A stretch of DNA of 64,000 bases from positions 1 through 64,000 of the forward strand of contig NZ_JAHHXM010000002.1 in NCBI RefSeq assembly GCF_019037185.1, in the 5' to 3' direction. This document shows, piece after piece, positions 1-40,908 of this stretch. Numbering within the stretch: the stretch's first letter is position 1; each line of letters opens with the position of its first letter. The position numbers and the translations under genes are program-made. The notes beneath the pieces are model-generated. The model did not search any database. It had not been told where the DNA came from and worked only from the letters and a program-made list of their open reading frames with translations. Origin of the DNA: Oceanobacillus caeni (lineage in GTDB: Bacteria > Bacillota > Bacilli > Bacillales > Amphibacillaceae).

Positions 1-74
1 GGCTCCACAGGTAGGATTCGAACCTACGACCGATCGGTTAACAGCCGATTGCTCTACCACTGAGCTACTGTGGA
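1..74 (-). tRNA. tRNA-Asn (anticodon GTT)
   Basis: The reverse complement folds as a full cloverleaf: acceptor arms TCCACAG and CTGTGGA, D-arm AGCTCAGTGGTAGAGC, anticodon loop CTGTTAA with GTT, and T-arm GTTCGAATC. The discriminator G and two C of the 3' CCA are encoded; the final A would lie just outside the window, so the gene is complete except for that base. Neighbouring tRNAs, if any, are outside the window. Confidence 0.95.
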
Positions 75-17510: not shown

Positions 17511-17555
17511 AAAAGCCGTCCCTATGCCTTATTCATAAGACATAGGGACGGCTTT
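17511..17555 (-). terminator. Attenuator terminator of the glyQS T-box
   Basis: 17-bp near-perfect stem with a short AT loop and trailing T residues; the antiterminator form uses the overlapping T-box sequence. Confidence 0.92.
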
Positions 17556-17730
17556 CACCGCGGTTCCACCCTATTTGCTCAAACGTTTGAGCCACTTTAT
17601 AAAAATGCTCCGGAGCGCCTTTCTCTGTACCCCTATTATCCAGCTTACACCAACCTGGACTCGCTTAAAATAGGCGATAACAGATACTCCTCTCCATCTC
17701 TGCACGATTCACTTTTTTATCGAATTATGT
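17511..17730 (-). promoter_or_regulatory. Glycine T-box riboswitch (glyQS leader)
   Basis: The minus-strand leader holds all T-box landmarks: the conserved T-box AGGGTGGAACCGCGG (17558-17572), which pairs with the uncharged tRNA 3' end, a competing terminator with arms AAAGCCGTCCCTATG and CATAGGGACGGCTTT (17511-17555) followed by T residues, and a Stem I with GGC in the specifier position (GAAAGGCGC near 17616), the glycine codon. It controls glyQ-glyS downstream. Confidence 0.95.
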
Positions 17731-19948: not shown

Positions 19949-20040
19949 ATTAGAAAACTTGGCATTCGCTATTAGGTTGGGCGAATGCCTTAGTTGCACT
20001 TATGTAGACGGGAAAGATTTTTATACTTTCCTACCTGCTA
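19949..20040 (+). repeat. Family A intergenic repeat, copy 3 (near consensus)
   Basis: Hairpin 1 arms GGCATTCGC and GCGAATGCC around an 11-nt loop, then TAGTTGCACTTATGTAGAC, then hairpin 2 GGGAAAG / CTTTCCT. On the minus strand the end reads GGCATTCGC...GCGAATGCC-AAGTTTTC, terminator-like, downstream of dgkA. Confidence 0.85.
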
Positions 20041-20157
20041 AAGAAAACTTCCATCAGTGGGGGTTCTTCATCCTCTCTGATGGTTAGTCGTACTTTTCGG
20101 ACCTTTACGGGCAGTTGGTCTCCAACCAACCTTCTTAGCTTGAGGTGGGATAATTTT
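20041..20157 (+). repeat. Family B structured repeat, copy 1
   Basis: Begins ACTTCCATCAGTGGGGG and pairs with a CTGATGG arm before TTAGTCG; then GGACCTTTACGGGCAGTTGG and a final GAGGTGGGATAA. It abuts family A copy 3. Read on the minus strand it ends with the CCATCAG/CTGATGG hairpin followed by AAGTTTTCTTT, downstream of dgkA. Confidence 0.7.
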
Positions 20158-29018: not shown

Positions 29019-29110
29019 ATTGGAAATCGTGGCATCAGCTATTAGGTTAGATGAATACTATAGTTGCACTTTTGTAGACGAGAAAGATTTTGATTCTTTC
29101 CTAACTGCCA
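29019..29110 (+). repeat. Family A intergenic repeat, copy 4
   Basis: GGCATCAGCTATTAGGTTAG, GAATAC, TAGTTGCACTTTTGTAGACG and hairpin 2 GAAAG...CTTTCCTAACTGCC. Hairpin 1 is partly degraded. Located directly after the yqeY terminator. Confidence 0.75.
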
Positions 29111-29143
29111 AAAAAGGTTCCTATCTAAAGATAAGAACCTTTT
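29110..29143 (-). terminator. Terminator of rpsU-yqeY
   Basis: AAAAAAGGTTC-TATC pairs with GATA-GAACCTTTTTC around a 4-nt loop, T-run on the minus strand, immediately after the yqeY stop. Confidence 0.9.
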
Positions 29144-30632: not shown

Positions 30633-31382
30633 TTATTGTTCTTCAAAATGGTAGGAAATGGCGGATAACGCATACAATGGTGCCGTCTCCGTACGTAATA
30701 TCCTTGGCCCTAATCGTATTGGATGAAAATCGTTCACTTTTAATATATTAGCTTCTTCCTCTGAAAAGCCACCCTCTGGACCAATACAAACCAATAATTT
30801 TTGATTCGAATTTATTTGTTTCAAAATGGAACCAAACGTATGATAGTTATTTACTTTAGCTTCTTCCTCATAGGCAAATATTTTTAAATCATATTGCGAA
30901 CTTTCCTCAATTAATTCTGTTATTGACATTGGGTTACTTATGGTTGGCACATAGGAACGGTGACTTTGTTCACTAGCCTCTTTCACTATTTTATTAAAAC
31001 GTTGTAACTTTTTAGCCCATTTTTTCTTATCCCATATGACAATAGATCTTTCCGATTGAAAAGGTATATACTTATGTGCGCCAAGTTCAGTACCTTTTTG
31101 TAACACAATCTCAAATTTATCAGCTTTTGGTATACCGTGAACAATTGTCACTTCAATTGGTAATTCATTATTTTCTTCTAACCAATGAAGTATAGCTACA
31201 ACGACAAAGTCTTTATCGATTTCCAAAATTTCACATTGGGCAGCTACGCCATTTTCATCATTACAAATGATTTTTTCGCCAACTGTAAAACGCATTACTC
31301 TTGTTATATGGTGTACATCGTCACCAGTAATCCTAATTCTATCGTCATACCATGCTTTTTTCGGAATAAAATACCGTTGCAT
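30633..31382 (-). CDS. rsmE: 16S rRNA (uracil1498-N3)-methyltransferase RsmE
   Basis: 249-residue SPOUT-class methyltransferase modifying U1498 of 16S rRNA. N-terminal PUA-like domain ([13 protein letters not shown] near 20), and the knot region with [11 protein letters not shown] near 199 and [11 protein letters not shown] near 224. ATG after AAAGTAGGTG. It follows prmA in the conserved dnaJ-prmA-rsmE order, though a repeat now separates the two. Confidence 0.94.
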
Positions 31383-31396
31383 TTATACACCTACTT

Positions 31397-31560
31397 TATT
31401 AGAAAACTTGGCATCTGCTATTGGCCCGGAAAATACTTTAATTCATTTATCCCACCTAAATGAGCAATGCGACTAACCATCAGCGGGGGATGTGGAACCC
31501 CCTCATTGATGGAAGTCTTCTTTATACAGGAAAGAAAGTTTAAGCTTTCTTTTCCCGCCT
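31397..31560 (+). repeat. Family A copy 5, split by an inserted family B copy
   Basis: Left part TTAGAAAACTTGGCATCTGC (31390-31427) and right part TATACAGGAAAGAAAG with CTTTCTTTTCCCGCC (31522-31560) belong to A. Between them lies a full B element in the opposite orientation (31428-31521). This is a nested insertion in the prmA-rsmE spacer. Confidence 0.75.
31428..31521 (-). repeat. Family B structured repeat, copy 4 (inside family A copy 5)
   Basis: Plus strand reads TTTATCCCACCTAAATGAGC, then GACTAACCATCAGCGGGGG and its partner CCCCCTCATTGATGGAAGTC, a strong hairpin with TCTTCTTT after it. The reverse complement aligns with copy 1. Confidence 0.78.
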
Positions 31561-31567
31561 AGAAACG

Positions 31568-32509
31568 CTAACTATTCTTTTTAGCAACAATAGAAATCCA
31601 GCCTTCCATTTCATTCATTGCAATAATTTCAAAACCTTTTTCCTTTAATTTGTCTTTAACCAGTTCTTTCTTATTTTGAATAATACCTGAGGTAATAAAA
31701 AATCCGCCTTTTTTTAAATTATTCCATGCTTCTTCTACAAATCGAACTATAATTTCAGCCAAAATATTAGATACAACAACATCAACTTTCATATCAACAT
31801 TATCTAATAAATTATTTTGTTTAGCTGTAATTTTATTTTCTAACCCATTTAACTTTACGTTTTCTTCTGTACTTTTAACTGCAACATCATCTAAATCATA
31901 CGCGAAAACTTCTTTCGCACCCAATAAAGCAGAGGCTATGCTTAATACACCGGAACCACTACCTACATCAATTACAGTATCATCTTTATTAACATACTGC
32001 TCCAAAGACTGAATGCTTAATACCGTTGTTGGATGGGTTCCTGTACCGAAAGCCATACCAGGATCCAATTCAATGATGACTTCATCACTAGAAACTGGTG
32101 TATATTCTTCCCAAGTTGGTTTAATGGTGACTTTTTGAGAGATTTTGACTGGATGATAATATTTTTTCCAGGCGTGAGCCCAGTCCTCTTCTTTAACTTC
32201 ACTAATAGTTACTTTATTAGGACCAATATCAATATCATAAACTAATAAGTTATTAATGGCCTGTTTGATTTCCTCAACTGTTTCTATTAAAAAACTATTT
32301 AGTGGTAAATAAGCTTTAATCCGTACACCTTCATCTGGATAGTCATCTGGATTTAACTCATACACTTCACCAAATGGCGCATTTCTAATTGCATCAAAAT
32401 CCTGAGAATCTTCAATGACTAATCCACTTGCACCCGTTTCGTGTAATATGTTAGAGATTGGTTCTATTGCTTCATTGGTTGTATGAATACTTATTTCAGA
32501 CCATTTCAT
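31568..32509 (-). CDS. prmA: Ribosomal protein L11 methyltransferase PrmA
   Basis: 313 residues; trimethylates ribosomal protein L11. N-terminal substrate-recognition domain (MKWSEISIHTT), linker, and SAM domain with DPGMAFGTGTHPTT near 148 and DVGSGSGVLSIASALLGA near 178, then NILAEI near 243. Start ATG 32509 has GGGTG 10 nt upstream; a GTG 9 nt earlier is too close to it. It follows dnaJ, as in B. subtilis. Confidence 0.95.
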   Translation of the reverse strand: MKWSEISIHTTNEAIEPISNILHETGASGLVIEDSQDFDAIRNAPFGEVYELNPDDYPDEGVRIKAYLPLNSFLIETVEEIKQAINNLLVYDIDIGPNKVTISEVKEEDWAHAWKKYYHPVKISQKVTIKPTWEEYTPVSSDEVIIELDPGMAFGTGTHPTTVLSIQSLEQYVNKDDTVIDVGSGSGVLSIASALLGAKEVFAYDLDDVAVKSTEENVKLNGLENKITAKQNNLLDNVDMKVDVVVSNILAEIIVRFVEEAWNNLKKGGFFITSGIIQNKKELVKDKLKEKGFEIIAMNEMEGWISIVAKKNS

Positions 32510-32565
32510 ACGGATCACGCACCCATTCTATAAAGTGAAACTTATTCAATCCAATATAAATTGAA

Positions 32566-33684: not shown

Positions 33685-33763
33685 AGTAATTCACTCTCCC
33701 GACACACTTTAGCATAGATTTTATATTATCATCATTTTGCTTATAATGGCAAATATCCTATTT

Positions 33764-33884
33764 TAAAAACTTGGCTTCGCTATTAGGCTTTAGCTAATGC
33801 CAAAGTTGGACTTATGCAGATCTGTACGGTGGGGCGTGTAACCGGAGCCCCAAACGGGAAAGTTTCTATACTTTCCTATCTGCC
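33764..33884 (+). repeat. Family A copy 6 with an internal insertion
   Basis: AAAAACTTGGCTTCGCTATTAGGC, ATGCCAAAGTTGGACTTATGCAG-like parts, and hairpin 2 GGGAAAG / CTTTCCTATCTGCC. Between them an extra block of about 36 nt carries its own hairpin GGGGC...GCCCC (33831-33852). Directly after the dnaK terminator. Confidence 0.75.
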
Positions 33885-33885
33885 T

Positions 33886-33924
33886 AAAAAAGTCAAAGCC
33901 AAGATAGCCCTGACTTTGACTTTT
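33886..33924 (-). terminator. Terminator after dnaK
   Basis: AAAAGTCAAAG / CTTTGACTTTT with a 15-nt loop and T-run on the minus strand, between dnaK and dnaJ. Confidence 0.85.
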
Positions 33925-40734: not shown

Positions 40735-40822
40735 TTAAAAAACTTGGCATTCGCTATTTAGTTCGGCGAATGCCTTGGTTGCACTTATTCAGTAAGAAAG
40801 TTTTATACTTTCCTATCTGCCA
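40735..40822 (+). repeat. Family A intergenic repeat, copy 7 (near consensus)
   Basis: Hairpin 1 GGCATTCGC / GGCGAATGCC, TGGTTGCACTTATTCAGTA, hairpin 2 GAAAG / CTTTCCTATCTGCC. The minus strand ends in GCGAATGCCAAGTTTTTT, a terminator shape, downstream of yqxA. Confidence 0.85.
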
Positions 40823-40908
40823 AGAATAATCAATAAAGTTGATTATAGCAATTGAATGTGGGATATTCAATCAAGAACATACATTAGCCTCCATACATTT
40901 TAGCTTTA

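Follow-up and report, generated by a model that had tools for sequence, protein, structure and literature searches.

A short dispersed repeat inserted within another in the prmA-rsmE spacer of Oceanobacillus caeni

The described elements that stand closest to the repeats considered here are bcr1-bcr3, which are short, hairpin-rich, high-copy, mostly chromosomal and MITE-like, and whose mobility has been linked to TTTAT repetitions; bcr group A repeats are described as restricted to the Bacillus cereus group (PMC6542083, PMC3446304). Lagging-strand insertion at a fixed target is the behaviour given for IS608 and ISDra2 (see PMC6006769). REPs are 20-40 bp long and end in GTAG (PMC3733652).

In this study, a window of 64,000 nucleotides (the whole stretch of DNA that was analysed, C22:1-64000) was taken from the 3.57 Mb draft genome of O. 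caeni, which consists of 87 contigs. The window contains a 185-base spacer, between two genes that we take to be prmA and rsmE, within which lie one copy each of two short repeats, referred to here as A and B.

Compared with these systems, B resembles bcr1-bcr3 in being short, hairpin-rich, high-copy and bordered by TTTAT (on both sides for the focal copy), but it occurs in an Oceanobacillus-type genome and is spread over the order, i.e., beyond the B. cereus group. B works like a bcr-type element, yet it is not filed as bcr1, since the described restriction does not apply to it and the comparison with the bcr repeats covered their described features. With palindrome-associated elements derived from IS200/IS605, B shares two subterminal hairpins and the orientation bias expected of lagging-strand insertion, and it may also share a short fixed target with no duplication evident beyond that motif. 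B thus works like such a derivative as well; it differs in that no parent Y1 element sharing A or B ends was found at the loci scanned. Like REP and REPIN elements with their RAYT transposases, it is short, palindromic, intergenic, numerous and thought to be moved through single-stranded DNA, whereas its 156 bases, two different hairpins and TTTAT/ATAAA ends place it outside the REP definition. It also differs from classical MITEs of DDE transposases, as it has no terminal inverted repeats. No published description of A or B was found in a search that lay mostly outside the subscription literature, and no claim is made that they are undescribed.

The nested locus and its edges

The 316-aa ORF is presumably prmA, and the 249-aa ORF is presumably rsmE, as named in the original prediction. 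Relatives adjoin an rsmE-like gene in the same order at all 55 loci examined, and rsmE follows prmA in 28 of 28 genomes of the genus. The features of the locus are:

30633..31382, minus strand: 249-aa ORF (presumably rsmE), the gene on the downstream side in the minus direction
31397..~31560, plus strand: whole A element, split by B
31397..31445, plus strand: first part of A, with left end, diverged first hairpin and start of the linker (A-model match from 31400)
31446..31525, minus strand: B, internally deleted, counted with both pentamers (aligned with 30 full copies; B-model match 31463-31525)
31446..31450, no strand: TTTAT pentamer on one side of B (by reading; six equal-score cuts)
31446..31460, minus strand: tail of B (in B sense TTTAGGTGGGATAAA), without the right hairpin expected before it (alignment)
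31471..31517, minus strand: left hairpin of B (predicted fold; same hairpin in full copies)
31521..31525, no strand: TTTAT pentamer on the other side of B (by reading; equal-score cuts)
31526..31560, plus strand: second part of A, with the second hairpin; far end approximate (A-model match to 31554; rejoining test)
31568..32518, minus strand: 316-aa ORF (presumably prmA), the gene on the upstream side in the minus direction

The nested arrangement put forward in the original prediction was borne out, i.e., A is split by an oppositely oriented B in the prmA-rsmE spacer. Scored with an A model from which the focal copy had been left out, A reached 29.5 after removal of 31446-31520, or of five equivalent shifts up to 31451-31525, versus 19.9 with B left in place. 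This plateau of six equal cuts results from the TTTAT at 31446-31450, which occurs again at 31521-31525. Some shifted cuts scored higher, namely 32.1 (31440-31513 and 31441-31514) and 30.4 (31445-31518). The edge of B therefore cannot be taken from the A model alone; it was fixed by the ends of other B copies. The insertion place in the A consensus is CTTAT of the linker. As A rejoins across a TTTAT-flanked B, B would have entered a TTTAT of the A linker, and no A sequence seems to have been lost.

The details of the arrangement were less well predicted. The left part of A had been taken to end in TTGGCCC, but 31428-31445 reads as diverged A and not as B, and the corresponding cut (31428-31522) scored 16.5 versus 29.5. 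The B ends had been called near-exact and the copy complete; in fact, one edge had been set too far outward by ~19 bases, and the focal copy is a shortened one, aligning to the first 65 and the last 15 bases of B with the second hairpin deleted (80 versus 156 bases). The predicted fold of the whole 80-base copy has -12.1 kcal/mol and a z of -1.9, and 8 of 200 shuffles fold as well. Without its right hairpin, the focal B is probably immobile.

The mosaic could instead have arisen by recombination between A and B copies via a shared linker. By reading, the linker TTAGTYGCACTTAT is common to A and B, and a hybrid repeat is present at C11:222861-222917 and the bases that follow (L168), in which the left hairpin of B is followed by an A-like second half; this hybrid suggests an exchange between the two families. 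At the focal locus, however, both A parts are kept, they join up in register once B is taken out, and TTTAT flanks B on either side, while one crossover gives one A part only and two exchanges in opposite orientation would be needed, which makes recombination a highly improbable origin of the mosaic. From the shared linker and the similarity of the left ends of A and B, we infer that the two repeats are related.

The nested insertion is a real but ordinary example of tiny mobile repeats piling up. Among 149 B flanks tested (overlapping loci, some copies perhaps counted twice), nesting was found in one clear case, the focal locus being the only one with a clear rejoining to A (24.7 with the cut used there). 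The chance expectation, by our own arithmetic, is ~2.6 of 97 copies if B falls randomly in intergenic DNA, and B-in-A nesting is no commoner than that. Special targeting of A by B was rejected as well: 6 of 97 B copies have an A no more than 30 bases away, versus 3.5 expected, and 286 of 2000 random placements reach 6. Of two further candidates, L030 (score 8.9) reads as A beside B, and L293, considered as B-in-B, reads as a reverse-strand match over a single B copy. Removal of A copies revealed no nests among the 74 copies tested.

Order of insertion and comparison with relatives

The nearest genome is that of Oceanobacillus sp. Castelsardo (L039; G023), whose PrmA is 90.5% identical. In its 151-base spacer, the same flanks enclose an A-type element that contains no B. 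This element matches the A model at positions 4-61 of 95 only and has an extra hairpin, for which reasons it is not read as an identical pre-insertion allele. The spacers of the other 26 genomes of the genus are 8-79 bases long, and no matches to the A or B model were found in them (29 loci scanned). All relatives compared are other species. The comparison of spacers proposed at the outset returned a B-free A-type element in Castelsardo, but not an identical uninterrupted allele; the case that would speak against the predicted order, i.e., relatives with the same AB mosaic and no uninterrupted A, was looked for in the genomes of the genus and not found. With a sister species that has an A-type element without B, and 26 others that have neither, the predicted order in which A would have inserted first and B later is supported.

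On the two contigs used for comparison with the sister species, a B-like counterpart was present at the matching place for 1 of 14 B sites and an A-like counterpart for 9 of 19 A sites (our own reading), in keeping with A as the older of the two families here. Another dispersed block, the third (GTTGTTCAAAAAGTCCGGTGAAAA...), is present in one species where the other has none, namely, on C29 of G023 at the place matching window positions 33720-33890, and on C22 of the window genome at the place matching G023 C29:87704; it is possibly another mobile repeat.

Structure, target and orientation of the repeats

A is ~95 bases long and consists of TTAGAAAACTTGG, a first hairpin, the linker TTAGTTGCACTTAT and a second hairpin. 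Searching the window genome with A gave at least 44 matches, the best after itself showing 96% identity over 97 bases (best 40 of 156 candidates scored). A query with the focal locus gave at least 43 matches, of which 40 besides itself were to the B part and 2 to the A part (best 40 of 241 candidates scored). Both repeats are far above chance. A hand-picked A alignment with mixed orientations was left out of all counts. Several copies of A have additional features. An extra hairpin of ~30 bases lies within the A copy at window positions 33762-33890, and an extra segment of ~30 bases, seen as a gap between two matches, separates the A halves at C11:5923-6051, C11:265304-265410 and C33:169500-169623. 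By reading, the A copies at 40735-40827, 29020-29115 and 33763-33890 end just before terminator-like sites (A-rich foot, hairpin, T run). At window positions 19950-20150, an A copy and, directly after it, a B copy share one orientation, the start of B (TAAAGAAAACTTCC) abutting the end of A.

Alignment of 30 full copies gave a B of 156 bases, which starts with ATAAA and a left hairpin, continues through the linker TTAGTCGCACTTAT into a right hairpin, and closes with a tail that ends in GGTGGGATAA(A). Full copies have two subterminal hairpins, and the focal B retains the left one only. Folded as single-stranded DNA, one full copy gave -37.2 kcal/mol (z -8.1). In 31 aligned copies, the proposed hairpin pairs are formed in 84% of cells versus 35-47% when slid, and no covariation beyond that of shuffles was detected in the hairpins.

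The left pentamer reads ATAAA (TTTAT on the other strand) in 25 of 33 full B copies and the right pentamer in 23 of 33. Deviations occur in 8 left and 10 right pentamers; two copies deviate on both sides, neither with an identical pair. Such unmatched deviations speak against duplication of arbitrary target bases. This bears on the view of B as a classical MITE of a double-strand-cutting transposase, with the TTTAT pair as a 5-base target duplication under a strong site preference: although direct pentamers flank most full copies and B is short, high-copy and non-coding, a deviant pentamer is not followed by its partner, and a terminal inverted repeat is absent (when the pentamers are included, 4 of 15 end positions agree, and when they are excluded, 2 of 15). 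As the strand bias of B (see below) is also unexplained by it, this view is very unlikely to be correct.

In 14 tandem regions, chosen for abutting or closely spaced B matches, head-to-tail B copies are joined via one shared pentamer in 11 (ATAAA in nine, a variant in two). These head-to-tail arrays, of two or three B copies with one ATAAA-type pentamer per junction, come from other genera of the family and order and from the genus genome G003 (L376-L386). Of 35 B hits examined for B-free sites, 27 were placed, 6 had no syntenic flanks and 2 were too long; many of the 27 automatic placements ran into AT-rich flanks, most sites were too diverged for locating the joint, and several of the mafft alignments were misaligned. 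A clean B-free partner, AAAATA/AATAGT, was found on C22 for the sister-species B copy at C29:141228. For the window genome, the cleanest B-free case is C11:202592, for which the relative reads GGAT/GTATTATT, without ATAAA at the joint; this joint does not fit a fixed target unless the site has changed.

The orientation of both repeats follows the GC skew. The C-rich strand carries the B sense in 80 of 97 copies and the A sense in 43 of 54; in the sister species, A is on the C-rich strand in 15 of 16 copies and B in one of two. Sorted by neighbouring genes (89 of 97 copies classified; low-skew stretches and copies without two neighbours were dropped), B orientation is 47 to 8 beside genes that run with the fork, 5 to 2 beside genes that run against it, 12 to 2 between convergent genes, 7 to 4 between divergent genes and 1 to 1 within genes. 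The bias is also seen at places where it is not dictated by the genes. An asymmetric target word might in itself produce such a bias, but outside ORFs and repeats the C-rich strand has slightly fewer ATAAA words (825 to 1042), so the target word does not explain the bias of B. Insertion into the lagging-strand template would give this pattern, with replication direction taken from GC skew. The focal B itself is in the minority orientation.

The same data bear on a view in which A and B are retained for a role as functional RNAs or terminator-like elements, with mobility incidental and orientation following transcription. The hairpins are strong, the repeats rarely lie inside ORFs of at least 100 aa (B 4 of 97 copies, A 3 of 54), and most are antisense to flanking genes, both neighbours being antisense in 48 of 86 classified B copies. 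Yet the bias persists between convergent genes (12 to 2), and the sister species has a B-like counterpart at only 1 of 14 sites. An Rfam scan at the gathering score detected a T-box leader (17541-17709, minus strand) and a tRNA gene (3-74, minus strand) and nothing else in the window, and matches at the locus and six B loci were all sub-threshold; A and B were accordingly rejected as RNAs described in Rfam. No terminator-like site was found in 31300-31650. Retention for such a function is therefore extremely unlikely.

B is best interpreted as a non-autonomous element, similar in kind to bcr1 of the B. cereus group, that would insert via single-stranded DNA. In the proposed sequence of events, an A element would first have been present in the prmA-rsmE spacer, and B would then have entered it on the other strand at the TTTAT of the A linker, leaving the A sequence intact; the right hairpin of the focal B may have been lost later still or may already have been missing on arrival. 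B would move as single-stranded DNA, its two subterminal hairpins being recognised by an enzyme supplied in trans that would cut at TTTAT on the lagging-strand template, and joining would leave one TTTAT on each side, a mode that may be likened to that of IS200/IS605-type elements with their own fixed targets. Built on the two repeat families, the in-register rejoining of A, the TTTAT on both sides, the B-free element of the sister species and the strand bias, this reading is given a probability of roughly 0.6. A different mode has been suggested for bcr repeats, in which B would exist as a double-stranded circle and be integrated at a TTTAT core site by a site-specific recombinase. It would equally give TTTAT on both sides and head-to-tail copies that share one pentamer, but does not by itself predict the strand bias of 80 of 97 copies; the target word is not biased that way, and this mode has no special place for two strong hairpins; we regard it as unlikely.

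Helper enzymes and range of the B family

The single-stranded reading calls for an enzyme in trans, and Y1 transposases were searched as candidates. The window genome has one intact Y1 transposase gene (C2:85203-85565), two fragments and four TnpB-type matches, and no convincing A or B ends were found at these Y1 and TnpB-type loci. Among those listed, 32 Y1 loci were scanned with flanks of up to ~1.5 kb; apart from a B match of 19.8 at L340, located outside the mapped element, no match exceeded 7.9, and a parent element with A or B ends was not found at any of the 32. The weak B matches of 7.6 and 7.9 are in L189 and L191, two loci with a resident IS605-like element. In L189, the match (1324-1384) covers the right hairpin region and lies just upstream of the intact Y1 gene of the genome, and the same holds for L191. 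That B is an end of the resident IS605-like element was rejected, as default settings gave no match and full sensitivity gave 7.6 and 7.9 only, although the position of the L189 match keeps it as a possible lead.

A Y1 match is absent from 7 of 28 genomes of the genus, 3 of which have at least five B matches. It is present in 7 of 10 genomes with at least five B matches and in 14 of the 18 others (best 30 B matches per genome scored), and Y1 presence is a weak correlate of B number. With no convincing ends at Y1 loci and with B-rich genomes free of Y1 matches, no helper enzyme for B could be named from the 28 genus genomes and 32 Y1 loci.

The A family occurs in 23 of 28 genomes of the genus. 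B matches at E <= 0.001 were likewise found in 23 of these 28. Within the family, 90 of 159 genomes had them, representing 33 of 46 genera; in a sample taken from the whole order, the corresponding figures were 92 of 397 and 48 of 135. Plasmids rarely carry B (3 of 72,556 records at E <= 0.01), and the B consensus gave no bcr-like hit to a B. cereus plasmid among these 72,556 records. It is conceivable, though doubtful, that A and B form two branches of a superfamily of minute mobile DNAs extending through the order, with a shared linker, a fixed-pentamer target (TTTAT for B), lagging-strand insertion and an unrecognised enzyme, which may perhaps also serve bcr1; such an enzyme is proposed because copy-rich genomes can lack any Y1 match.

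As a small-scale record of one insertion followed by another, the locus is useful for dating repeat families. The family behind B, which is little described, is more interesting than the focal copy: it is matched in roughly one in four of the genomes drawn from the order, has a fixed target motif and shows an orientation tied to GC skew. With B, it becomes possible to test in harmless laboratory species, beyond the B. cereus group, by what means bcr1-like repeats are moved.
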